A stretch of 42,537 nucleotides of DNA from a virus. Of this stretch, positions 2 to 38,884 are shown one piece after another; positions within the stretch are counted from its first letter, which is position 1, and the number at the start of each line of letters is the position of its first letter. Below the pieces are notes generated by a model. It did not search any database and was not told the origin of the DNA. It worked only from the letters and a program-made list of their open reading frames with translations. The stretch covers positions 1 to 42,537 of the IMG/VR virus record IMGVR_UViG_3300048834_000471, one strand, 5' to 3'. Both the position numbers and the translations under genes were made by a program.

Positions 2-3000
2 GCGCGCGCGGCATATACTCAGCTCGGTTTCCAGATTCAGGATATAACGCAAAGCCTCGCGCTCGGGATTAACCCGCTCGTCGTCTTTGGACAGCAAGCG
101 GGACAGACGGCCGCCGCCGTTTCCGGAATGGGCGGCCGTCTCGGAGCGGTCGGCGCATTTCTTGCCGGACCCTGGGGCTCGATCATTCTCGGGACCGTTA
201 CCGTTGTCGGCTTTTTGACCGCAGCTCTTTGGGATAATACCGAGGCGGCGGCGGCGGCCGAGGCAGGTTCCGACGGCTTGTCGCAAGCTCAGTCGGTCCT
301 CGGACAGATATTCGACGAGACCTCGGGCAAGATCGCCAAGCAAAACGAACTCCTCATTCTGAACGCGCGCCTTACCGCTATCAATTTGCGCGCCGAGGCT
401 CTTAAGCAACGGCAATCGTCGGCCGAGGCATTCTCGAGCGCCGGAAAAACTCCGTTTACCGATCGGTTAAAGGCAGGCGCGAGCGGATTTGGCGCGCTCG
501 GTCCGGCTGGTCTATTTCTCGGCCTCCGCAACGGTTCGGCTCAGAGTCAAAAGTCGACCGCAAATCTCCGACAAATTATTGCAGGGGTCAAAGACGGCTC
601 GGTCTCGTCGGAAACCGCGCTCCGCTTGTCCGAAACGCTCGACTTTCGCGGCGCCGGAGTGTCGCGGAATGAATTTCAGCAAGCCATAATTGACGCGGTT
701 AGCGCCGACGCGAAGTCTCAAACGGCCGATCTTATCGACCAGTCGCTCAACACAGGCTCGCTCGCCTCCGAGTTCCGGAAAGGCGGCCGCAAAACCGGAG
801 GCCGAAAGACGCGCGGCTCAGGCTCAGGCGCGCGCGAGGCTCAACAATTGGCTGATTTCGGACAGAAAGCCGAGGAGCGGGTTAAGCGGCTGAACGAGGC
901 GTTCGACGAAACGCCGAAACTTGTCGACAAAGCAAATCAGGCGACGCGCGAACTCGACGATATTATCGCAGATCTCGCGAAGCGGAAACCGCCGGGTTTC
1001 GAGCAAACGATCAAGGAAGCCGAGGCCGCAAAGCTGGTCGTTCAAGAGGCGCTTGTCCGACCATTTAACGACCTCCTCAAGCAATCCGAACAACGGATGA
1101 ATGTCGAGCGCCTTATCGCGGCGGGACGAGAGGACGAGGCTCGGGCGCTCGAGATCATTTATCAGCTCGAGGAGCGGGTCGGAGAGGTCAAAGAGGAGCA
1201 ACGCCGCGCCATTGTCGACCAGGTAAGGCAAGAGCGCGAGCTGAACGAGGTTCTCGAGCGCCGTCGCGAACTGACGGACGCATATCTCAGCGTTACGCGC
1301 GACGTCCGCGCCGAGCTCGAATCCATCCTTTCGGGCAGGGGCGGAAATATCCTTAAGACGCTCAAGCAAGGGTTCCTCGACATACGGGGGAAAATCTTGA
1401 CCGAGCGCCTATTCGGACCGGCTCTGCGCGAGCTTGACGAGTTTGTGAAAGGCGAGAACGGCGTCAAGACGAGCGTCGATATCATGTCGACAGAAACAAA
1501 GCGCGCCGGCGCGGTTGCTGGCGACTTTGCCGATTCGGTCGGTCGCGCAATTGACAAGATCGACGCCGTCGTCTCGGGAGGAACGGCCGGCGCTGGTATT
1601 GCTACGCCTCCCCCTCCTGAAGAAGCCTCGGCCGGAGGGCAGGGAGACGAGATCGTCGTCAATGGCCTAAACCTTAAGCGGACCGTTTACGGCCTCGACC
1701 CGAAAGATTATTTCGAACGCCTTACCGCCTCGATCGCCGGACCCGTCCTCGAGGGGCTTGACCAGGCTCTCGGGGTCAAATTCTTTTCAGGCCTGCAAAG
1801 CGTATTGTCCGGCGTTTTGTATGGCCTAGCAACCGGAGGAACGCCGGGAGGGGTTCTCGGCGGCCTTAAGGAGCTGAACGAGAAATTCGGGACTGAGATA
1901 TTCGGCGACAAATTCGCGTCGAAGCTCGGGGAGAAGCTCGGCGGCGCGCTTAGCGGGGCTCAGACAGGGACTCAAGTCGCGGCCATAGGAAAGGCGCTCG
2001 GCGTCAAAACGTCGACGGTAGGGGCTCAGATTGGCGGCGCTATCGGTTCTTTTATTCCTATTCCGGGCGGCGATATTATCGGCTCGGTTATTGGCGGCTT
2101 GCTTGGCGGCGCTCTCAAAAAGACGCCTTACGGAACCGCGGTCGTATCCGGCTCGGGAGACCCGACAATTCGCGGAAACAAGGCCCAGGCGCGCGAGATC
2201 GCAACAGGGCTCGGCGGTTCGGTTCAAGACGCGATTGCAAATATCGCCGACGCTCTCGACGCCGATATCGGAAAGTTTCTGGTCTCGATCGGAACCGTAA
2301 ACGGCAAGGCTCGGGTCTCGACAACTGGTCGCTCCGGCAAGTTGAAAACCAAGTTCGGAGACGTCAAGGACTTTGGCAAAGGTGGCGAGGAGGAGGCTCT
2401 CGCCTTTGCTATCTCGACCGCTATCGGACAAGGCGCAATTGCTGGAATTTCCGAGGCGATGCAAAAGGCGCTGCGCTCAAATCCCGATATTGACAAAGCG
2501 GTCCGCGAAGCTCTTTCGGTTCGAGATCTCGAGGACTTAATTGCAGGCCTTACCGATCTCGAAAAAGCATTCCGGGACGCTGACAAGGCGGCGGCTGAGC
2601 GGGTTCGCCTTGCTAAAGCATACGGTCTAGATCTTATCGCGGTTGAGCGCATCAATGCCGAGGAACGGAAAAAGCTCCTCGACGCGGCGCTCGAGGCTCA
2701 GGTCGGCTCATTGAAAGATCTCCTCGACGATCTCAGTTTCGGCGCGTTGTTTGAGGGGTCGGCGTCGCAACGTCGTTCGCAGCTCTTGAAAGAAATAGGC
2801 GACGCTCAGGCAGATATTGACGCCGGGGTCGAGGGTGCGATTGACCGATACGCCGATTTGCAACGCCGCCTTGTCGAGACGTCTCGAGAAGCGTTCGGAA
2901 CCGCGGGTCCGGAGTTTGCAAATGATCGAGCCCAGGCAATCGCGAACGCTGAGCGCATTATCAAGGCCGAGGAGGAGCGGATTCAAAAGGCCGCGGAGCA

Positions 3001-3187
3001 ACAGGTCGCGCAACTAAACGCCTTGACCGAAAACAACGTCCTTACAAACGAGACGAACGACCTTCTCGCGACAGCTAACACTCGACTCGAGTCGATAGGG
3101 AACTTGCTCTCCTCGCAAGGGTTCGGCGCGTTTTCCGGCCTTGGCGATACCTCGTCGCTTCTCCGCGGCGTGGCGGTGGCTTTCTAA
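2..3187 (+). CDS. Tail tape measure protein (5' end cut by window)
   Basis: Runs in frame from the left edge, so the N-terminus is missing; about 1061 codons are visible. The segment near the edge (GFQIQDITQSLALGINPLVV, then a QQAG stretch) is typical of lambda-type tape measure proteins, which set tail length and line the tail lumen before DNA ejection. Long charged alpha-helical stretches follow. A glycine-rich hydrophobic section lies around nucleotides 2030-2130 (IGGAIGSFIPIPGGD), as expected for the membrane-penetrating part. An ATG at 128 exists but has clear coding sequence upstream, so it is not the start. The stop overlaps the next start as TAATG, indicating coupling to the tail hub gene. 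Confident family call. Confidence 0.9.
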   Translation, partial: ARAAYTQLGFQIQDITQSLALGINPLVVFGQQAGQTAAAVSGMGGRLGAVGAFLAGPWGSIILGTVTVVGFLTAALWDNTEAAAAAEAGSDGLSQAQSVLGQIFDETSGKIAKQNELLILNARLTAINLRAEALKQRQSSAEAFSSAGKTPFTDRLKAGASGFGALGPAGLFLGLRNGSAQSQKSTANLRQIIAGVKDGSVSSETALRLSETLDFRGAGVSRNEFQQAIIDAVSADAKSQTADLIDQSLNTGSLASEFRKGGRKTGGRKTRGSGSGAREAQQLADFGQKAEERVKRLNEAFDETPKLVDKANQATRELDDIIADLAKRKPPGFEQTIKEAEAAKLVVQEALVRPFNDLLKQSEQRMNVERLIAAGREDEARALEIIYQLEERVGEVKEEQRRAIVDQVRQERELNEVLERRRELTDAYLSVTRDVRAELESILSGRGGNILKTLKQGFLDIRGKILTERLFGPALRELDEFVKGENGVKTSVDIMSTETKRAGAVAGDFADSVGRAIDKIDAVVSGGTAGAGIATPPPPEEASAGGQGDEIVVNGLNLKRTVYGLDPKDYFERLTASIAGPVLEGLDQALGVKFFSGLQSVLSGVLYGLATGGTPGGVLGGLKELNEKFGTEIFGDKFASKLGEKLGGALSGAQTGTQVAAIGKALGVKTSTVGAQIGGAIGSFIPIPGGDIIGSVIGGLLGGALKKTPYGTAVVSGSGDPTIRGNKAQAREIATGLGGSVQDAIANIADALDADIGKFLVSIGTVNGKARVSTTGRSGKLKTKFGDVKDFGKGGEEEALAFAISTAIGQGAIAGISEAMQKALRSNPDIDKAVREALSVRDLEDLIAGLTDLEKAFRDADKAAAERVRLAKAYGLDLIAVERINAEERKKLLDAALEAQVGSLKDLLDDLSFGALFEGSASQRRSQLLKEIGDAQADIDAGVEGAIDRYADLQRRLVETSREAFGTAGPEFANDRAQAIANAERIIKAEEERIQKAAEQQVAQLNALTENNVLTNETNDLLATANTRLESIGNLLSSQGFGAFSGLGDTSSLLRGVAVAF

Positions 3188-23512: not shown

Positions 23513-24039
23513 GCGTAAAGGACCCGCCAAAGCGACCGCGACAAAGACGGTCGGAGGAGTTGACGGAGCGCGAAAAGCGGTTTGTCGACGAATATCTTAT
23601 CGACTTGAACGCAAAGGAGGCCGTCCTCCGCGCTGGCTATCAATCCGCATATCCCCGACAACAGGGATATGAAATGTTGCAAAAGCCGAAAATCGTCGAG
23701 GCTATTACTCGAGCCCAGGCGAAACGCGCGCGGCGAACTCGAATCGATCAAACAGTCGTTCTCGTCGAGGCGTTCAGGCAATACAAGCTCGCGGCGGATA
23801 GTGCCGGCCGTGGCAAAGAATCGAGACCCGCGGAACGAGCTCAGGCTCTCAAGGCTTTAGAAATGGTCGGTCGGCATGTTGACGTTATGGCTTTTCGAAA
23901 TCAAATCGGGGTCGGGAACCTTGACGGTTCGAACTTTGACTTTTCAGGCCTGAACGATGCTGAACTCGCCGATCTTGAGCGACTCCTCGCCAAAGCTGCC
24001 ACCTCTGAGCAAGGTTCGGGCGGAGATAGCGAGGCGTAA
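23509..24039 (+). CDS. terS: Terminase small subunit
   Basis: 176 aa. The N-terminal region (LTEREKRFVDEYLIDLNAKE, then AVLRAGYQSAYPRQQGYEML) is the helix-turn-helix DNA-binding domain of the Terminase_2 family, followed by a helical oligomerisation region and an acidic C-terminus (NDAELADLERLLAKA). It recognises phage DNA and hands it to TerL. The large-subunit gene follows in a different frame with an 83-nt overlap. Confidence 0.88.
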   Translation: MSVKDPPKRPRQRRSEELTEREKRFVDEYLIDLNAKEAVLRAGYQSAYPRQQGYEMLQKPKIVEAITRAQAKRARRTRIDQTVVLVEAFRQYKLAADSAGRGKESRPAERAQALKALEMVGRHVDVMAFRNQIGVGNLDGSNFDFSGLNDAELADLERLLAKAATSEQGSGGDSEA

Positions 24040-25669
24040 AGCGGTTGCGGAGCGCGAGCGCGTAATGCGCGAGGCCGAGCATATCCGCGAGCGTTGCCAA
24101 TCCCTTTACGAGTTTGTTCAAGAATTTTGGTCGGTTCTCGAGCCGTCGACCCCGTTTGTCGGCGGATGGGCGATAGAGACGGTTTGCAAGTTCCTCGAGG
24201 CCGTTACTGAGGACCGCATTCAATATCTTTTGATTACAATTCCTCCCGGCATGGCGAAATCGCTTATCGTCTCGGTTTTCTGGCCTGCCTGGGAATGGGG
24301 GCCGAAAGGCCGAGCCTCTCTCCGATATTTGACCTCGTCGTTCTCGCGGCCGAACGTGATTCGCGACAATCGGAAAATGCAACGCCTGGTCGAGTGCGAA
24401 AAATATCAAATGCTTTGGGGGGACAAGGTCCGTCCCTCGAGCAAATGGGGTGAGGAAAAGTTCGAGAACCTCGCGACCGGAAACCGGGAGGGTCGCGCGT
24501 TCGAATCCATGACAGGCGGCCGCGGCGACCGAGTAATAATCGACGACCCGCATTCCGTTGACAGTGCCGAGAGCGAGGCTCAGCGAAAAGGCGTTGTCCG
24601 GACATTCCGCGAAGCTATCCCCGATCGCCTGAACGACCTCGCGGTTTCGAAAATCGTCGTCATTATGCAGCGTCTCCATAAGCAAGACGTCGCCGGAACT
24701 ATTCTCGAGCTCGGCCTCCCCTACGTTCATCTCAACTTGCCTATGATGTTTGAGGAGGAGCGGATTAACGAGGCGACGGGACAGAAAACCGGCGGACCTT
24801 GCGAGGTATGGCTCGAGAACAAAGAAACCGGAGATCTCGAGCTATTTTTCCGCGACCCGAGAACAAAAGACGGCGAACTCCTATTCCCTGAACGCTTCCC
24901 CGCCGAGCGCCTCGCCGTTCTCAAAAAGACAAAAGGTTCCTATGCCTGGGCGGGTCAATACCAGCAAAGGCCGACCGAGCGCGAGGGCGGCATGTTTAAG
25001 CGCGCATGGTTTGAGGGGAAAATCATCCCGAGGTCGGCAATACCAGCCTCGGCGCGCGCGCGTTGCCGTGCATGGGATAGGGCGGGGACCGCAAAGAAAA
25101 AGGAGGCGTCGAGCGAACCGGACTGGAGCGCCGGCGTCCGCATGGTTAGGGACGGACCGGACTATTATATCGAGCATGTCTCGCGGTTCCAATCGTCCCC
25201 CGGCGTTGTCCGAAAGACAATGAAATCGCTCGCCGAGACCGACCCCGTCGGAACTATTATCCGCATTCCTCAGGACCCCGGACAAGCCGGCGTTGACCAG
25301 ATCGAGCGCGACGCCGCGTATTTCTCGGGATACCGGCTCTCGTTCGTGAGGCCGATAAACGACAAGGCAATGAGAGCGGAGCCTTTCTCAATTCAGGCCG
25401 AGTTCGGGCATGTCTATCTCGTCGAGGGCTCTTGGAACGAGGATTTCCTCGAGGAGCTTTGCTCGTTTCCTAACGGTCCCGACGACCAGGTCGACGCCGC
25501 GAGCGACGCATTCGCCGAGCTGGCAGGGGTTAAGGCGGTCGGCTTTGACGGTGACTCCGCGGGCTCGAGGGTAACGGTCGAAACGTCGGCTCGTGACTCG
25601 AGATATAATTTCGGCGATAAGGCGACGAGTTGGGGGTCCGCCTCGTCGTTAATGCAAGGGTTTGGTTAA
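23957..25669 (+). CDS. terL: Terminase large subunit
   Basis: 570 aa. Walker A-like PPGMAKS at residues 96-102 and Walker B RVIIDDPHS (D196/D197) form the packaging ATPase. The C-terminal half has the RNase H-fold nuclease pattern (CRAWDRAGT; FPNGPDDQVDAASDAF). It pumps DNA into the capsid through the portal and cuts it. The 83-nt overlap with terS depends on the first ATG; an in-frame ATG at 24065 lies beyond the terS stop and is an alternative, but would remove a helical N-terminal part. Coupled to the portal gene by TAATG. Confidence 0.92.
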   Translation: MLNSPILSDSSPKLPPLSKVRAEIARRKAVAERERVMREAEHIRERCQSLYEFVQEFWSVLEPSTPFVGGWAIETVCKFLEAVTEDRIQYLLITIPPGMAKSLIVSVFWPAWEWGPKGRASLRYLTSSFSRPNVIRDNRKMQRLVECEKYQMLWGDKVRPSSKWGEEKFENLATGNREGRAFESMTGGRGDRVIIDDPHSVDSAESEAQRKGVVRTFREAIPDRLNDLAVSKIVVIMQRLHKQDVAGTILELGLPYVHLNLPMMFEEERINEATGQKTGGPCEVWLENKETGDLELFFRDPRTKDGELLFPERFPAERLAVLKKTKGSYAWAGQYQQRPTEREGGMFKRAWFEGKIIPRSAIPASARARCRAWDRAGTAKKKEASSEPDWSAGVRMVRDGPDYYIEHVSRFQSSPGVVRKTMKSLAETDPVGTIIRIPQDPGQAGVDQIERDAAYFSGYRLSFVRPINDKAMRAEPFSIQAEFGHVYLVEGSWNEDFLEELCSFPNGPDDQVDAASDAFAELAGVKAVGFDGDSAGSRVTVETSARDSRYNFGDKATSWGSASSLMQGFG

Positions 25670-27744
25670 TGGTCGACGACAGTCTTTTCTCGCGCATGCG
25701 CGCTCTCGTTTCATGGGCCGGACCGAATAACGGCGCGGTCCCCGAGGACGAAACGGCTCCGGCCGAGCAAGGCGCGGTCTATTCCAGATCGGGCGAATCC
25801 TTCTCAATCCCGGACGCATGGCTTAAGCAGCTCGCGGTTAACGACGACACAATCCTCGCTCGCGAGGGAAATCGAGATCTCAAACTTTACGAGGCCTTGC
25901 TCGACGACGACGTCGCGTTCTCATGTTTCCAGCAACGCCGACTCGCCGTTGTCTCAAAAGATTGGGAGGTTGAACCCGGCGACGAGAACGACCCGAGATC
26001 GGTCGAGGCGGCCGAGCATTTGCGGCAACAGCTCAAGCAAGTCGGTTTCGATCGCGCATGCAATCTCATGCTCTTTTCGGTTTGGTTTGGCTATTCGGTC
26101 GCGGAATTTGTCTGGAAAGTCGGTCCCGACGGCAAAATATGGATAAGCGACATAATCGTTCCGGACCGGCGTTGGTTTGGTTTTACCAATGGCGGCGAGC
26201 TGAGGTTCAATCCGACCATTTCGGTTATGGGCGGCGAGACCGTTCCTCCTAACAAGTTTTGGCTATGCCGGAACGGCGCGTCGCATGATTTCGCCTTTTA
26301 CGGAATAGGTCTCGGCCATTGGGCATACTGGCCAGTCTGGTTTAAGCGGCAAGTTATCCGCTTTTGGGCCGTTTACCTCGAAAAGCTCGGCTTTCCGACC
26401 GTTGTCGGCGGTCAAGAATCCAATTGGACCGAGACCGAGAAAACCGATTTCCTCAAGACGCTGGTCGCTATCGGCCGCGACCGCGCGGTTCGGGTCCCGT
26501 CCGAGGTTTACGATAAAATTCAGCTCCTCGAGGCGCAACGCTCCGGCGCCGGAACCTCGTCCTATAGCGACTTTGTAACCGAGCAAAACGAGGCGCTTAT
26601 GCGCGTAATTCTCGGACAGACGTCGACGACCAAGGCAACGCCGCAAGGCCTGAACGGTCGCGGCGCCGAGGTGCATCAAGACGTCAAAGAGGAGATCGTC
26701 AAAGCCGATAGCGACCTCCTTTCCGAGAGCTTTCCCGCCGCAAAATGGCTTACGCGCTGGAATTTCGGCGAGGACGTCGCGCCGCCTCGGGTCTATCGCA
26801 AGCTCGAGAAAGAGGAGGATCTCGATACGGTCGCTGAGCGCGACGTTAAGCTCGACGGTATCGGAATCAAGCGGACAAAGGCCTCCGTTGCCGATGTTTA
26901 CGGCGCGGGATACGAGCTCGACGATCGAGAGCCGGTCGACCATCCGTCCGGAAAGACCGGACAACTCCCGACCAGCGCGAACGACGACGAGAAAGACGAC
27001 CGGGAAGCGGAGCGCGCCGCATTCGCGGCTCGAGACGTTGCGCCGCTTTACGTTTACCGAAAGCTCGTCAATGCGCGCGCCCTTCTCGCCTGGGCAAAGG
27101 CTCAGGGTATCCCGAACCTCGTTCCGGCAAAGGAATTGCATGTAACTTGCCTATATTCGAAACGGCCGGTCGATTGGTTTGATCTTGCCGGCGGCTGGTC
27201 ATGGGAGGGCGGGGTTAAGGTTGCGGCCGGAGGTCCTCGCAAGGTTGAGCTTCTCGGCGACGAGAACTCCGCGCTCGTTCTGAGGTTCGCCTCGAGCGAG
27301 CTTGAATGGCAACACAGGGAGAAAATTGAGAAAGGCGCTTCTCATGATTATCCCGAATATCTGCCTCATGTAACCTTGAGCTATGACGCCTCCGGCTTCG
27401 ATCTCGATAGCGTCGAGCCTTACAACGGCGAGCTCATTTTCGGACCGGAGATATTTGAGGATATCGACCCCGAGTTCGGCGCTCTTGTCGACGCGCTCGT
27501 TTTCGAGGCTGGCGAGGAGGATGCTATCGAAAAGATCGCTCGCGCCCTTGCCGAGGAAACAAATCCAATCCTCCTCGAGTTCGGCGCTGCGCTTGCCGAA
27601 TCGGTTAAAGGCGTGAAATCGGCCGAGGGTCTCAGGGTCGCGCTTCTCGAGGCGTTTGAGCGATTGCCAGCCTCGCGCCTTGCTCAGGCGGCCGGACTGC
27701 CTTTGCTATCGGAGCGCATGCGAGCCGAGGCCGGGGTCGACTAA
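25669..27744 (+). CDS. Mu-like portal (DUF935) fused to a C-terminal 2H phosphoesterase (Acb1-like) domain
   Basis: 691 aa from the ATG overlapping the terL stop. Residues about 1-400 match the Mu gp29/DUF935 portal family (VAFSCFQQRRLAVVSKDWEV; FAFYGIGLGHWAYWPVWFKR). These portals form the dodecameric DNA entry ring and are usually near 500 aa. After an acidic linker, residues about 465-600 form a 2H phosphoesterase: ELHVTCLYSKRPVDW (H491-V-T493) and LPHVTLSYD (H567-V-T569), with both catalytic HxT motifs intact. The sequence around them resembles the anti-CBASS Acb1 group that hydrolyses cyclic nucleotide signals. A helical tail of about 90 residues follows. Confidence 0.85.
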   Translation: MVDDSLFSRMRALVSWAGPNNGAVPEDETAPAEQGAVYSRSGESFSIPDAWLKQLAVNDDTILAREGNRDLKLYEALLDDDVAFSCFQQRRLAVVSKDWEVEPGDENDPRSVEAAEHLRQQLKQVGFDRACNLMLFSVWFGYSVAEFVWKVGPDGKIWISDIIVPDRRWFGFTNGGELRFNPTISVMGGETVPPNKFWLCRNGASHDFAFYGIGLGHWAYWPVWFKRQVIRFWAVYLEKLGFPTVVGGQESNWTETEKTDFLKTLVAIGRDRAVRVPSEVYDKIQLLEAQRSGAGTSSYSDFVTEQNEALMRVILGQTSTTKATPQGLNGRGAEVHQDVKEEIVKADSDLLSESFPAAKWLTRWNFGEDVAPPRVYRKLEKEEDLDTVAERDVKLDGIGIKRTKASVADVYGAGYELDDREPVDHPSGKTGQLPTSANDDEKDDREAERAAFAARDVAPLYVYRKLVNARALLAWAKAQGIPNLVPAKELHVTCLYSKRPVDWFDLAGGWSWEGGVKVAAGGPRKVELLGDENSALVLRFASSELEWQHREKIEKGASHDYPEYLPHVTLSYDASGFDLDSVEPYNGELIFGPEIFEDIDPEFGALVDALVFEAGEEDAIEKIARALAEETNPILLEFGAALAESVKGVKSAEGLRVALLEAFERLPASRLAQAAGLPLLSERMRAEAGVD

Positions 27745-27948: not shown

Positions 27949-28839
27949 ATGCCGGTTCTATTTCCCATTTTCGACGGTCCCTCGGTAAGGCTTTTGCAAT
28001 TTGAGGCGCGCGACCCTCGTCTAAACCCGCTCAGCGTTTCAATCGAGGACCTGGTCAAGTGGATAGGCGAACGCGACCCTCGAGCTATCGGCTCTTGGCG
28101 CGAGCTCGGCGCGGAGGAATATACGCGCTCGTTCGCCGCGGCTCAGACGGCCGGATATTCGGTTGTCGGAGATCTTTATCGGGAATTTCAAACGACGATC
28201 GAGACACAGGGGACCGAGGTCGATTATGCCGAGCGAGTCTTGCCTATCCTACGCCGCAAAGGTTGGCTTGCCGGGACCGGCGTCAATGTCGCGAAGCGGG
28301 TTCAACTCATTTACGACACAAATCTAAGGCTCGCGCGCGCGGCTGGTCAATGGAACCGCTACAAACGAACCGCCTCCGCGCTTCCCTATCTCCGCGGCGT
28401 CACGGCGCGCGACGAGAGGGTAAGGCATCCCCCGAAAGCCGATAGTGACCATCGCGCATTTGACGGAATTATTCTCCCGATCTCGCATCCTTTCTGGACT
28501 CGCTGGTTTCCTCCGCTCGGGTTTCGTTGCCGTTGCTCCGTTATCCAAATGACGAGATCTCAGCTCGCGCGCTGGAATAGCGGAATCACCTCGGCCGCAG
28601 ATCTCGCGGAACGAGAAGCGCGACTCGGCGAACCGATATTCGCGACCCCAGGTTCGTTTAATGCTCAGCTCGCGACGATCGCAGGCATTGCGAACGAAAA
28701 CCGCATTCCGGGACAACCGGCGTTTGACATTCGAGGCGCGGCCTATAGAGGTTCGCAGCTATGGCAAGCCGAGCTGGTCGACCAAGCCGTCGACGATATC
28801 GCGGATTTCCTGAACCGGCTCCTCGGGCGCGCGGCTTGA
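27949..28839 (+). CDS. Minor head protein, Mu gpF-like
   Basis: 296 aa with the Phage_Mu_F domain: NLRLARAAGQWNRYKR, TARDERVRHPPKADSDHRAF and PPLGFRCRCSVIQ near residues 183-196. This is the usual Cys/His-containing core of the family. Members are head morphogenesis proteins encoded next to the portal and ejected or retained with the portal vertex. The stop overlaps a TTG-started lipoprotein gene. Confidence 0.88.
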   Translation: MPVLFPIFDGPSVRLLQFEARDPRLNPLSVSIEDLVKWIGERDPRAIGSWRELGAEEYTRSFAAAQTAGYSVVGDLYREFQTTIETQGTEVDYAERVLPILRRKGWLAGTGVNVAKRVQLIYDTNLRLARAAGQWNRYKRTASALPYLRGVTARDERVRHPPKADSDHRAFDGIILPISHPFWTRWFPPLGFRCRCSVIQMTRSQLARWNSGITSAADLAEREARLGEPIFATPGSFNAQLATIAGIANENRIPGQPAFDIRGAAYRGSQLWQAELVDQAVDDIADFLNRLLGRAA

Positions 28840-29701: not shown

Positions 29702-30505
29702 ATGGCAAAGTCACAAATGGTAGATCTCGATTTCGGCGGCGTTGCAAAGGCAACCGGCCTTGCCAATCCGACCGCAGCTAGTGACGCCGCGACAAAAGCG
29801 TATGTCGATTCGGCGGTTGAGGGGCTGAACTGGAAAGATAGCGTCCGGGTCGCATCGGTCGCGAATATCAATCTCGCCGGCCCAGGCGCGACGATTGACG
29901 GCGTAGCAATGGCGGCGAACGATAGGTTCCTTGCCAAAGATCAAACGACCGGTTCGCAAAACGGGATTTACGTTTGGAACGGCGCCGGAGTAGCAGCGAC
30001 CCGCGCGCTCGATATGAACAGCGCGGCCGAGGTCGAGCAAGCCGTTGTCACGGTCGAGGAAGGGACGAGCGCGGGTTCGACATTCCGTCAAACTCAAGTC
30101 AATGTCACGCTCGACACGACGAGCCTCGCCTTTACCTCGTTCGGAACGTCGACTCCGTCCGCCTCGGAAGCGACCGCCGGCGTTCTCGAGATCGCTACTC
30201 AGACCGAAACCGATACTGGAACCGACGACGCGCGCGCCGTGACGCCGCTCAAACTCAAAAACTCGAAGCTCTTTAACAAGACGGCCGCATTCAATATCGG
30301 CGACGGTTCCGCGACATCGTTCAATTGCGACCATAATCTGAATACGCGCGACGTTATCGTCTCAGTCTTTCGCAATTCGGGCAATTTCGACGACGTTATC
30401 GTCGAAATTCAGCGGCCGACGGTCAATCGCGTAACGATTGTAACCTCTCCGACCGTTCCGGCGGCGGCGGCGCTCAGGGTCGTTATTCAGGGAACGCAGG
30501 CCTAA
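29702..30505 (+). CDS. Fibre protein with KAYVD-type repeat start
   Basis: 267 aa, preceded by TAGGAGCTCGCCGAA. The segment NPTAASDAATKAYVDSAVEG, then LNWKDSVRVAS and DRFLAKDQTTGSQNGIYVW, is characteristic of phage fibre shafts. The C-terminus has FNCDHNLNTRDVIVSVFRNS, shared in style with the previous gene. The cluster sits between gpF and the capsid block, so it may be a head fibre rather than a tail fibre. Trimeric fibre is inferred. Confidence 0.75.
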   Translation: MAKSQMVDLDFGGVAKATGLANPTAASDAATKAYVDSAVEGLNWKDSVRVASVANINLAGPGATIDGVAMAANDRFLAKDQTTGSQNGIYVWNGAGVAATRALDMNSAAEVEQAVVTVEEGTSAGSTFRQTQVNVTLDTTSLAFTSFGTSTPSASEATAGVLEIATQTETDTGTDDARAVTPLKLKNSKLFNKTAAFNIGDGSATSFNCDHNLNTRDVIVSVFRNSGNFDDVIVEIQRPTVNRVTIVTSPTVPAAAALRVVIQGTQA

Positions 30506-33636: not shown

Positions 33637-33761
33637 GATACGAGACCGAGTTTCATCGCTGCCCAAAGGGCAAGAGCGAAAGTTGCTGAGATCGCGATAA
33701 CGAGAGCGTCGTCGCGCCAAGTATTGACCGGCTCGAACCGGTTTCGAGGTTTCTTGCTCAT
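33633..33761 (-). CDS. 42-aa single-TM protein
   Basis: ATG overlaps the methylase stop (ATGA at 33761). Begins MSKKPRNRFEPVNTWRDDAL, then one membrane segment VIAISATFALALWAAMKLG near the C-terminus. The basic N-terminus suggests it faces the cytoplasm. Function unknown; size and topology match small phage membrane effectors. Confidence 0.6.
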   Translation of the reverse strand: MSKKPRNRFEPVNTWRDDALVIAISATFALALWAAMKLGLVS

Positions 33762-35587
33762 TTCAGTTCGCCTTTCATTTCGAGGTAGATACGCTCGATA
33801 ATCCATCGGCCGCAATTGCGCGCCCATGAGTTGCCGAGCGATTTGTAGCGCGGCGCGTCGGCGGCGAGGTCGGTCCGATCATTGTCGACGCTCAGGCCGT
33901 GAATCGAAACCATATATTCCCGCATTTCGGGCGATATCTTGCGCTTTGCTCCCCAGGGAATAGCGGTAAAGTTATCAGGAAAGCCTTGCAAACGCTCGTC
34001 CTCGACCGGCGTTAACCGGCGAACCGCGAGGCGCAATCCATCTTGCAACACATAGGAGCGGCTCGAACCTCCCGAGCTAGATCTCAAATTCGCGGTTGAA
34101 TGAGGTCCCTCGAAAGCAGCTCCTCCCTCTCTCCCCCCGAGATCGTATGCAACGGCCATTTGTCCGCCGCCGTTCGGTTTCGAGTTCGCGTCATTCATGG
34201 CGCGGAGTGTCGGCGCAATATCAATCTGAGCGTCTGAGCTGCTATCATTGCTCGAGAACGCAATCGCGACGGATTGAGGTCGTCTAGCCTCGATTGTGTA
34301 AGCTAACTCCTCTTGAAAACCTTTTCCCTGAGGTCCGGTCGTCGGCTTTTCTGCGACCGCTCTTTCCTGAATTGCATACGATACAGGAATGAAATGTCCG
34401 ACCGACGCTCCCTCTGGTCGCCCCCCTGCCCCTCCGGAAAAACTGTCCGCGCAAATTGCTCCTACTATCTGAGGAATTAGCGTTGTCCGGCCGGTTCCGT
34501 CCTCGCTCGCGTCAAAGCCCTCGGCTCGAAGCGTCGCGGCAAGCTCAGGCGGCGAGCTTATGACGAGATCGGTTGCGTCTTTCCAGTCGCGCGCCTTTAT
34601 GGTCGAAGCGGTCTCGTCGATCTCATACTCGCCGAACCCGAGCATTCGCGCGCCTACTGGCTGTAGTCCTCCCTCAAGCTCGAAATCGGTTCCGAGGCCG
34701 CCACCGCCTTTAGTGCGAGAGCTAAGGGTTCCGGCAATGTCTTTTGCTTTCCGCGATTGGCGGCGCGATTTAGAATGCCCTTGCATGCTCCGGCGCTCAA
34801 ACAGTATTCGGGCGGGATCGTCGTCTCCAAAACTGACGACAACAAACACTCGCCGCCGTCGTTGGGCGAGTCGGAAGTGTTGAGCGTCGAAAACCCGCCA
34901 TGCAACCCTTGCCCTTGGCCCGGAAGCCATACCAGAATCCGGCCATTTTCCCCCGAGAGGGTTAGGCAAGGGAGCATTTGCTCCGATAATTGCTCCCAAG
35001 AAACAGCCGAAAGCGTTGTCTTTTGTTGAGAGCCATCCGGGGACGTTTTCGACAAGTAGGATTCGAGGTCTAATTGCATGCGCTATTTCCACAAAACGGA
35101 GGGACAGATTGCCTCGATCGTCGTCGAGACTTTCGCGAAGGCCTGCAAAGCTGAATGCTTGGCAAGGCGGACCTCCGACAAGGAGATCTATACGGCCTAG
35201 GGTCAAGGCCTCGGCGATGAAATCGGGGTTCGATACGTCGCCGAGATTGATTGACCGGTTCCCTCCCTTGATCGTGGCAACTGCCTTGATCGCAGCTCGG
35301 CGAGCCTGCCTCTCGAGAAAAGGCTCAAGCGCCTCGGTTTCGGATTTTGTCCGGTCCGTCGATTTCTTTTTCAGTATGCGCGCCGCCTCCTCGTCTGAGA
35401 TCTCGACGACAATGTCGTCCGGCGACGGCATGAAGCGCGGGGCGCTTGCGCCGAACCGCGCCGCGAGAACGGCGGCGGGGAACGGTTCAATCTCGGCGCA
35501 CCATTTCCAATCGAACTCCGGACCTCCGAGCTCAGGCGCTCCGATACCGGAAAAGCATGTCGCGCCGGTAAACTGAGGCTCGATCAT
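33758..35587 (-). CDS. DNA cytosine-C5 methyltransferase
   Basis: 609 aa from the ATG overlapping the upstream stop. Motif I is CFSGIGAPE (11-19). The catalytic motif IV is VGGPPCQAFSFAG (C142), motif VI LLVENVPG, motif VIII QRRRRVFVV, motif IX RRLTPVEDERLQGFP and motif X GNSWARNCGRW. The family is usually 330-450 aa. Extra length lies between motifs I and IV (about 50-110, charged) and in a 250-residue region before motif IX that should hold the target-recognition domain. No cognate nuclease adjoins it, so it is probably protective modification of phage DNA. Confidence 0.9.
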   Translation of the reverse strand: MIEPQFTGATCFSGIGAPELGGPEFDWKWCAEIEPFPAAVLAARFGASAPRFMPSPDDIVVEISDEEAARILKKKSTDRTKSETEALEPFLERQARRAAIKAVATIKGGNRSINLGDVSNPDFIAEALTLGRIDLLVGGPPCQAFSFAGLRESLDDDRGNLSLRFVEIAHAIRPRILLVENVPGWLSTKDNAFGCFLGAIIGANAPLPNPLGGKWPDSGMASGPRARVAWRVFDAQHFRLAQRRRRVFVVVSFGDDDPARILFERRSMQGHSKSRRQSRKAKDIAGTLSSRTKGGGGLGTDFELEGGLQPVGARMLGFGEYEIDETASTIKARDWKDATDLVISSPPELAATLRAEGFDASEDGTGRTTLIPQIVGAICADSFSGGAGGRPEGASVGHFIPVSYAIQERAVAEKPTTGPQGKGFQEELAYTIEARRPQSVAIAFSSNDSSSDAQIDIAPTLRAMNDANSKPNGGGQMAVAYDLGGREGGAAFEGPHSTANLRSSSGGSSRSYVLQDGLRLAVRRLTPVEDERLQGFPDNFTAIPWGAKRKISPEMREYMVSIHGLSVDNDRTDLAADAPRYKSLGNSWARNCGRWIIERIYLEMKGELK

Positions 35588-35751
35588 GCCGCTAGTTGCT
35601 TTGCGCTGGTTATCGCGTCGAGGATTTCGCAAGCAGCCATTTCGACAGAGTCGATAGACTGACCATTATCAAAAAGAACCTCGACAGAAACGGCGAGCAA
35701 ATTCGCGCGTTCCTTGAGCTGGTCGATTACGTCGATTTGTTGTTTCGTCAT
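35584..35751 (-). CDS. Small helical protein upstream of the methylase
   Basis: 55 aa; the ATG at 35751 overlaps the upstream stop and is preferred to the ATG at 35766. Mostly helical: TKQQIDVIDQLKERANLLAV, then VEMAACEILDAITSAKQLAA. Similar small phage proteins of unknown function have this length and amphipathic pattern. Coupled to the methylase (ATGA). Confidence 0.6.
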   Translation of the reverse strand: MTKQQIDVIDQLKERANLLAVSVEVLFDNGQSIDSVEMAACEILDAITSAKQLAA

Positions 35752-36537: not shown

Positions 36538-37521
36538 ATGGACGAAATCGAGATCGAAGTTTTCCGAGCTGATACGCGAGCCTCGCGCGGCATAACGTCG
36601 CGCGACATTGCCGAGCTCGCCGAGGCTTACGACCCTGAGACCAATCCGGCTCCGCTTGTTATCGGGCATCCGAAAGACGACAGTCCCTCCGAGGGCGTCG
36701 TTTCCAAGTTCAGGGCCGAGGGGAATGTCCTTTTTGCGACGTTGAAAGACGTCTCGGACAAGCTGGTCGACAAGGTCAAAAATTCCGAGATCATTAACCG
36801 GTCAATGGCCTTTTTCTCGAAATCGCATGAAGCGAACCCGACGCCGGGAAAGCTCGCGCCTCGTCACCTCGGCTTTTTGGGAGGTTCGGCTCCTGGTATT
36901 CCGGGCATGTCGAGCTTGAAAAAGGCTCTTTCGTTCTCGGCTGAGGGCGATATTCTCGTCGTCGACGGCGACCCCGCCGACGCAATCATTTTCGAAGCGG
37001 CCGGAACGCCGGTCCTATCAGTGCAAGAGGAGTTCGCAGCAATGCCGGGCGAAAAGACAGCAGAAGAAATCGCGGCCGCAAACGAAGCCGAGGCAAAGCG
37101 CCTTGCCGACGAGCGCGCCGATCTCGAGGCGAAACAACAGCAGTTCGCCGCCGACCAGGAAAAGGCAAAGAAAACCGCCGCCGAGGCTCGCGTCGATACG
37201 CTGGTCGCGGCTGGTAAGGTTCTCCCTGCCAATCGCGACGCGCTCGCAATGGTTTTCGGCGCATTGTCCGACGACGAGCTCGAGTTCAGCGCCGACGACA
37301 AGGGAACCGCGGCGGACAAGCTCGCCTCGATCATAGCCTCGGGACCCGCGCTGGTCGATACGACCGGCAAACAACTTTCGCCGAAAGACAAGTTCAGCTC
37401 GTCGACCGGCAACGCCGAGGCCGACGCGCAAACGATCGACGCCAAGGCGCGAAAGCTCATGGAAGAAACCCCCGGCCTCTCATTCCAGGCGGCCGTCGAA
37501 CAAGTAAGCGAGGAGGCGTAA
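36538..37521 (+). CDS. Mu gpI-like capsid protease/scaffold
   Basis: 327 aa. The N-terminal half (APLVIGHPKDDSPSEGVVSK, then SEIINRSMAFFSKS and LGFLGGSAPGIPGM) has the pattern of Mu I/Z-type prohead proteases. The C-terminal 150 residues are a long Ala/Glu/Lys helix (EEIAAANEAEAKRLADERAD), typical of the fused scaffold part. It would assemble with the capsid protein and be removed at maturation. No Shine-Dalgarno sequence is visible; the promoter -10 is so close that the mRNA may be nearly leaderless. Confidence 0.83.
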   Translation: MDEIEIEVFRADTRASRGITSRDIAELAEAYDPETNPAPLVIGHPKDDSPSEGVVSKFRAEGNVLFATLKDVSDKLVDKVKNSEIINRSMAFFSKSHEANPTPGKLAPRHLGFLGGSAPGIPGMSSLKKALSFSAEGDILVVDGDPADAIIFEAAGTPVLSVQEEFAAMPGEKTAEEIAAANEAEAKRLADERADLEAKQQQFAADQEKAKKTAAEARVDTLVAAGKVLPANRDALAMVFGALSDDELEFSADDKGTAADKLASIIASGPALVDTTGKQLSPKDKFSSSTGNAEADAQTIDAKARKLMEETPGLSFQAAVEQVSEEA

Positions 37522-37921: not shown

Positions 37922-38884
37922 ATGCCTCAGGCTCCCTTTGTTACAGTCCCGGCGCTTATCGCCATTGCGAACGATTATTCGCGCATCAATGCCGCTCAGC
38001 GTGGCTATGTTGCCGATATCCTCGTCCCTCGCGTCCGGGTCGACGCTCCCGAGTTCCGTTATCCGGAATACAAGCTCGAGGAAGCATTCACCGTTCACGA
38101 TAACCAGGTCGACCGCCTCGGCCGCCTGAACGAGATCCTCGAATCCGCGACCGAATCGACCGGCGCGGTTAAGGATTTCGGTCTCGCTCAGCCTATCCCG
38201 TTCCGCGATGAAGCGGCGGCGTCGGCTGGCGTTATCTCGTTCGACCCGAAAGCTCGAGCGGTCCGCAACGTCGAGGACAAAAACCAGCTCGCGCGTGAAA
38301 TTCGCGTCGCTGCCATGCTGCAAAATACGGCGAATTATCAGGCCGGATATTTCGAGGACGAAACGGCGACTCCTTGGTCGGCCGATACGTTCGACGTTCC
38401 GGAAAAGGTCGAGCAGATCAAAAACAACATGCTCCTCCCCCCGAACGTCGCGTTCATGTCGCAAGCCGTGAAAACCATCCTCCGGCGTCACCCCTCGGTC
38501 GGCGAGGCTCTCGGCGGAACCTTTACCAAGGGTAAAGCCATGAGCGACGAGGAGCTCGCGGTTGCGCTCGGCGTCGACAAGATCGTTGTCGGTAACACCC
38601 TCAAGCAAACGTCGAAGCGCGGACAGACGCTTACAACCGGCGCGATTTGGGGAAATCATTTCGGCTTGTTGCATATCCCGCCGGTTCAGGCCGACGGCTT
38701 TGTGAACGATACGAATCAACCCGCATTCGCTCTTACGTTCCAATGGGGTTCGAAGGTTGTCGGCGAGGTTCCCGACCCCGAGATCGGCCTTTGGGGCGGC
38801 GTCCGGGTCCGCAACGGCGAAAGCCTGGTCGAGAAAGTTGTCGCTCCGTTCGGCGGCTATCTCGCTCAGAACGTCCTCGGTTAA
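37922..38884 (+). CDS. Major capsid protein
   Basis: 320 aa, preceded by ACAGGAGACTCACGA. Size, high-quality ribosome site and place after protease and decoration genes identify the major capsid. The sequence has the HK97-like order of an extended N-arm (YVADILVPRVRVDAPEFRYP), a P-domain and a beta-rich C-terminus (VVGEVPDPEIGLWGGVRVRN). Assembles the icosahedral head around the scaffold. Codon use is the most even and GC-rich of the window. Confidence 0.88.
   Translation: MPQAPFVTVPALIAIANDYSRINAAQRGYVADILVPRVRVDAPEFRYPEYKLEEAFTVHDNQVDRLGRLNEILESATESTGAVKDFGLAQPIPFRDEAAASAGVISFDPKARAVRNVEDKNQLAREIRVAAMLQNTANYQAGYFEDETATPWSADTFDVPEKVEQIKNNMLLPPNVAFMSQAVKTILRRHPSVGEALGGTFTKGKAMSDEELAVALGVDKIVVGNTLKQTSKRGQTLTTGAIWGNHFGLLHIPPVQADGFVNDTNQPAFALTFQWGSKVVGEVPDPEIGLWGGVRVRNGESLVEKVVAPFGGYLAQNVLG

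Follow-up and report, generated by a model that had tools for sequence, protein, structure and literature searches.

Why should the portal protein of a Mu-like phage contain a nuclease domain, and how could an enzyme built into a structural ring be delivered? These questions are raised by the portal gene of IMG/VR virus record IMGVR_UViG_3300048834_000471, the whole 42,537-base stretch of which is called here the window. The gene (25669..27744; coordinates are those of the window, and the portal gene and its parts lie on the plus strand) is a stop-free open reading frame (ORF) of 691 residues that encodes a DUF935 (Portal_Mu) portal with an inserted Acb1 domain. The answer that we favour, with moderate confidence and from sequence comparison, is that the portal carries a swappable Acb1 cargo cassette, from which the head protease would excise a free nuclease of ~160 residues directed against signals of the CBASS (cyclic oligonucleotide-based antiphage signalling system) type.

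An Acb1 domain within the portal

Pfam places the Portal_Mu core at residues 72-412 (25882..26904; PF06074, E 6.2e-80) and Acb1, a 2H phosphoesterase domain, at residues 459-602 (27043..27474; PF23474, E 3.7e-38, 130.9 bits versus a cut-off of 27). In PHROGs, the protein matches phrog_113 (portal) and, at residues 461-601, phrog_755, which is labelled 'RNA ligase'. The full-length model matches the JBD30 and Mu portals in Foldseek. An initial annotation had described a DUF935 portal with an Acb1-like 2H domain, about 170-180 residues longer than its Mu relative and with two intact HxT motifs (H491 and H567). The two domain matches bear this out; the excess over Mu gp29 is 179 residues (691 vs 512) and an HVT begins at both positions. 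The same annotation regarded the additional domain as an extension, and here it has to be corrected. The DUF935 tail continues after the domain, at residues 615-691 (27511..27741), as seen in the alignment with the tails of two Acb1-free relatives (L116 and L126), which rules out a C-terminal extension. Acb1 is thus an internal insertion in the portal and not a C-terminal addition.

Among solved chains, the sequence comes closest to the Pam3 portal (8hds, E 6e-35) and to FBB1 Acb1 (7t26, E 1e-11). The AlphaFold2 model of residues 455-614, based on 67 sequences, has a predicted local distance difference test (pLDDT) value of 88 and a predicted template modelling (pTM) score of 0.81. Used as a Foldseek query, it retrieves FBB1 Acb1 first (7t27/7t26, E 4e-9, TM 0.66-0.77), then Acb1 of Burkholderia phage BCSR5 and then E. 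coli LigT, so that the comparison with Acb1 structures proposed in the initial annotation returned the 2H fold. Sequence, predicted fold and active-site residues all agree with those of solved phage Acb1 proteins, which supports assignment of the domain to the 2H phosphoesterases of the Acb1 kind.

The HxT/HxT catalytic tetrad described for T4 Acb1 (PMC9117128) is represented in the window, by motif position and alignment to the T4 protein, by H491-V-T493 (27139..27147; T4 H44/T46) and H567-V-T569 (27367..27375; T4 H113/T115). The tetrad is conserved in 110 of 110 compared domains, Ser replacing the second Thr in 11; conservation of the His is partly built in for loci found with a pattern containing the second His, whereas it is free of that bias for loci found with portal-core patterns. 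In pairwise comparisons, the ratio of nonsynonymous to synonymous substitution rates (dN/dS) of the Acb1 part is 0.10-0.47. The domain is under purifying selection.

The inserted domain is best read as an Acb1-like nuclease acting on cyclic oligonucleotide defence signals. The closest solved relatives, by sequence as well as by fold, are Acb1 proteins. The stacking aromatic Y12 and the contact residue E141 of T4 Acb1 have equivalents in the window in Y461 and E597, the latter being retained in 31 of 32 DUF935 cases; Y561 also fits among the stacking aromatics (Y12, W74, F107 and W147 in T4). However, T4 W74 is not conserved (it aligns with E527) and W147 is either replaced by F (F603 in the window) or missing. 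The substrate range may therefore differ from that of T4 Acb1. In a competing reading, the enzyme has another substrate altogether, being an RNase, an RNA-end enzyme or an enzyme cleaving the signals of type III CRISPR or TIR-based systems. The lack of conservation of W74 would fit this reading. The 2H enzymes include LigT and Usb1, LigT structures come next in the fold search, and Iyer et al. 2017 suggest an RNase or a 2',5'-oligoadenylate-degrading role for such domains (PMC5512222). In view of the Acb1 proteins that head both searches and of the retained Y12 and E141 equivalents, we consider another substrate unlikely.

Putative protease sites on both sides of the domain

How would the enzyme leave the ring? 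In the mechanism that we propose, a Mu-type portal holds a complete Acb1-type cyclic-nucleotide nuclease between its core and a short C-terminal tail, so that with twelve subunits per portal the prohead would receive up to twelve copies of it. In this phage group, the head maturation protease would cut the scaffold at F-x-A and remove the portal tail, and it would also cut on both sides of Acb1. The two cuts would free residues 455-614 (27031..27510) as a predicted fragment of 160 amino acids and 17.8 kDa, similar in size to T4 Acb1 (152 amino acids). The freed enzyme would then destroy the cyclic oligonucleotides by which CBASS-type defence raises the alarm. It would do so in the cell in which the phage assembles or, if retained in the head, in the cell infected next.

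The predicted sites are F-A-A, directly before Acb1 (residues 452-454, 27022..27030), and F-E-A, directly after it (residues 612-614, 27502..27510). Both lie in linkers that are predicted to be disordered (residues 421-454 and 606-631, pLDDT <50). All 33 fused proteins have a motif of this kind in the 25 residues upstream of Acb1: 26 have F-x-A, 6 F-x-V and 1 Y-x-A. All 33 likewise have one downstream of the domain, which is F-x-A in 28 cases and F-x-E in 5. In the alignment of 31 fused proteins, F612 is invariant and A614 nearly so.

The same motif pervades the scaffold. The head maturation protease of the window is encoded together with a scaffold part (36538..37521, plus strand; PHROG 976, E 7.7e-47), in which 7 of 8 Phe residues stand in F-x-A; ten other proteins have 19 of their 185 Phe residues in this motif (p 3e-6). 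In nine fused phages, F-x-A accounts for 63 of 86 scaffold Phe residues and for 94 of 988 elsewhere. Among Mu-like phages, the scaffold motif varies, and that of the portal tail varies with it. Mu has LSA in both proteins, while B3, with FAE in its scaffold, and YPCBV-1 have F-x-E in both. Among 58 decidable phages, an F-x-A scaffold is accompanied by an F-x-A portal in 16 of 16 cases and an F-x-E scaffold by an F-x-E portal in 38 of 42 (Fisher's test, p = 6e-11, or 4e-6 with the Acb1-free phages alone, the phages not being independent). JBD30, with AAL-type scaffold repeats and a looser AALAT in the portal tail, was not counted as support.

Precedents for such a cutter exist. T4 gp21 cleaves after L/I-x-E and phiKZ gp175 after S/A-x-E (PMC9026906). 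The three-residue layout is the same here, which suggests the head protease as the cutter; no mapped head-protease sites for Mu-like phages were found in the literature searched. The virion structure of Mu lacks the final 124 portal residues, which is attributed to cleavage by protease I (PMC11915804). The LSA of Mu gp29 lies at residues 429-431, and a cut there would take off 81 residues (9 kDa). The JBD30 portal is modelled over 405 of its 526 residues. Acb1 of the window sits in the portal segment that matches the part missing from both virion models.

Several observations weigh against excision. Relaxed versions of the motifs arise by chance in 40% (before Acb1) and 52% (after it) of shuffled linkers, so that the motifs of any one protein prove nothing. 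On the tree, the match between scaffold and portal reduces to only four independent contrasts, of which ~3 agree and none opposes, and is not significant; the Fisher values thus overstate it and we have downgraded it accordingly. The agreement is a correlation only, with few independent contrasts. Finally, portals of the DUF1073 family fused to Acb1, of which Pam3 is the type, mostly have no flanking motif. Excision is therefore no general rule for portal-Acb1 fusions, and the same mechanism for DUF1073 portals was rejected.

This last point bears on a competing explanation, in which Acb1 stays on the portal crown and acts there, in twelve copies per virion. In DUF1073 portals such as that of Pam3, Acb1 occupies the extreme C-terminus, mostly without a flanking F-x-A, and tethering may be the rule there. 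In DUF935 portals, on the other hand, the domain belongs to the segment that the virion models of Mu and JBD30 lack (PMC11915804), and it is bracketed by two conserved motifs that also occur in the scaffold. In addition, 8hds is not among the top 50 matches of the domain fold search, suggesting that the Pam3 domain itself is unmodelled there. Since a segment missing from the virion coincides with two predicted protease sites, release is the likelier course, and we regard a tethered enzyme as improbable in DUF935 portals. The initial annotation had envisaged up to twelve portal-bound copies in each virion. The figure of twelve can be kept as an upper bound per prohead; that the copies remain on the portal is disfavoured by the same two observations.

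Gain, loss and exchange of the domain

The Acb1-free portals L116 and L126 share 98-99% amino acid identity (95% at the DNA level) and the same tail with three fused portals, L027, L120 and L108. L027 has ~501 bases where L116 has ~21. Furthermore, L027 shares just 65% amino acid identity with L120 and L108 in Acb1, compared with 98-100% in core and tail. Because near-identical portals differ in their Acb1 or have none, the domain is mobile as a unit: it is gained, lost and exchanged among otherwise near-identical portals. The upstream motif is absent from L116 and L126, which have the second alone. In the domain tree, the DUF935 label needs four changes, of which the well-supported branches force just one, so that single or multiple acquisitions are possible. 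Another Acb1-free DUF935 portal (L114:2528-4129) has a second F-x-A within a few residues of the first, resembling an empty cassette site.

Portals without Acb1 exist and appear intact, which means that the domain is dispensable for the portal. Together with the catalytic residues retained in all compared domains and a dN/dS below 0.5, this makes it very improbable that the domain, despite its location in a structural gene, is a mere structural spacer or a remnant with no enzymatic role.

A broader model can be formulated, more tentatively than excision itself. The DUF935 portal tail might serve as a cargo dock, in which an anti-defence enzyme is swapped, gained or lost between two head-protease sites and is freed in the prohead. 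The prohead protease of phage Bas13 is reported to interact with a type I CBASS sensor and to trigger it (cited in PMC12409349). Were Acb1 released by a prohead protease, alarm and antidote would coincide in place and time, and the class of protease that triggers the former would possibly also release the latter.

Distribution and related fusions

The DUF935-Acb1 fusion was found in none of 811 deposited phage records with a match to the DUF935 portal, no match covering 80% of the protein. With the Acb1 domain alone as query, the phage records yield many portals, of the DUF1073 type where checked. Of the 80 best Acb1 relatives among viral contigs, most are DUF1073 portals and three are portals of the HK97 type. 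A pattern derived from the window portal as a single protein gave no matches in genome and viral collections; alignments were needed. The 33 distinct fused proteins, including that of the window, come from uncultured-virus contigs. One of them is found also in the genome of Sphingobium faniae (L173), and an additional case comes from a further genome of the same family (L259). Of 299 genomes from the family to which S. faniae belongs, 32 have a SMODS cyclase that scores above cut-off, which proves nothing for the phage of the window.

These counts agree with the expectation of the initial annotation that the DUF935 arrangement is distinct from the Acb1-like domains of other portal families. 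The latter are present on DUF1073 portals, that of Pam3 being in the Protein Data Bank, and on HK97-type portals. In the latter, which form a third portal family, Acb1 is C-terminal (L023 by Pfam, L047 and L079 by similarity). The concept of an enzyme on the portal is not new, since Iyer et al. 2017 (PMC5512222) describe fusions of 2H with portal or MuF domains and propose that these act as RNases or degrade the nucleotides of defence systems. No description of the DUF935 insertion, the double motif or the swap and absence alleles was found in the literature searched, which mostly did not include subscription papers, among them that on the Pam3 structure. The DUF935 insertion arrangement thus appears to be new.

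Other unusual architectures were encountered. A 980-residue ORF (L024:4549-7488) combines a DUF1073 portal and Acb1 with a following ADP-ribosyltransferase domain (PF03496, E 1e-24); a similar ORF of 1153 residues (L035) has no named extra domain. Acb1 and a Gp49/RelE-like domain (PF05973, E 6e-6) share a single ORF in L080:5821-6882. In L020:5848-6897, Acb1 is N-terminal to a domain that has no Pfam match and, by eye, resembles prohead-protease proteins. Stand-alone Acb1 genes of an Agrobacterium plasmid (L015:5001-5438) and of phage DSS3P8 (L016:4992-5444) carry the label 'prohead protease'; this is likely a misannotation, and they were discarded as protease fusions. DUF935 portals may have other tail cargo, as in L175:9773-12193, whose tail of ~350 residues lacks a Pfam match and contains a HEMGH zinc-peptidase-like motif. 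A DUF935 portal and a MuF domain occupy one ORF in a Magnetococcales genome (L241:9893-12103), and L240 looks alike.

The head module of the window

The portal gene is flanked, as expected of a DUF935 portal, by the genes for the terminase large subunit (23957..25669; PHROG 38, E 2.7e-67), the 3' end of which coincides with the portal gene start, and for a MuF-like minor head protein (27949..28839; PF04233, E 8.1e-9). Farther on in this Mu-like module come the head protease, a scaffold-like protein and the major head protein (37922..38884; PHROG 1005, E 8.8e-61). The genes for the terminase, the MuF-like protein, the head protease and the major head protein are on the plus strand. Between the MuF and head protease genes lies a DNA-methyltransferase-like gene on the opposite strand (33758-35632, minus), and a tail-fibre/decoration-like ORF (29702-30505) also interrupts the head module. 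Elsewhere in the window, an ORF of 1019 residues (128-3187) has no Pfam or PHROG match.

Relation to known systems

The window domain shares with T4 and FBB1 Acb1 (anti-CBASS nucleases of PF23474) the fold, the HxT/HxT tetrad and the equivalents of Y12 and E141. Unlike T4 Acb1, which is the product of a stand-alone gene, it is embedded in a portal and lacks a W74 equivalent, and its nuclease activity is a predicted one. The Pam3-type portal (8hds) also bears a fused Acb1, the domains being 44% identical, but belongs to another portal family, with Acb1 at its very end, no tail after it and mostly no F-x-A before it. The fusions of Iyer et al. 2017 (PMC5512222) likewise place 2H domains, proposed to degrade defence nucleotides, on head proteins, whereas the accessible part of that paper describes no DUF935 case, no bracketing by protease sites and no swap or absence alleles. 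Mu gp29 has the same DUF935 core and tail, the latter reportedly removed by protease I and containing the scaffold-type LSA; unlike the window portal, it has one motif and no cargo domain.

A parallel to the proposed cargo is seen in T4 IPI and Alt, counter-defence or takeover cargo of the prohead that is trimmed by the protease at short motifs and ejected into the host (PMC9026906). However, these are encoded by separate genes with their own targeting sequences, whereas in the window the carrier would be the portal and the cargo internal to it.

Although 2H enzymes linked to portals have been known in broad terms since 2017, the question of how a structural ring might deliver them has had no answer. 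The sequences suggest a concrete and testable mechanism, excision of the enzyme from the portal tail by the head protease. Matching motifs in scaffold and portal may provide a simple predictor of head-protease sites in Mu-like phages, and the benefit conferred by the enzyme could be assessed in a natural comparison of Acb1-plus and Acb1-minus alleles, carried by phages that are otherwise nearly identical. If the mechanism is true, Mu-like portals would carry exchangeable counter-defence cargo comparable to the T4 internal proteins, and head maturation would set the copy number of the enzyme, the timing of its release and the site at which it is released.

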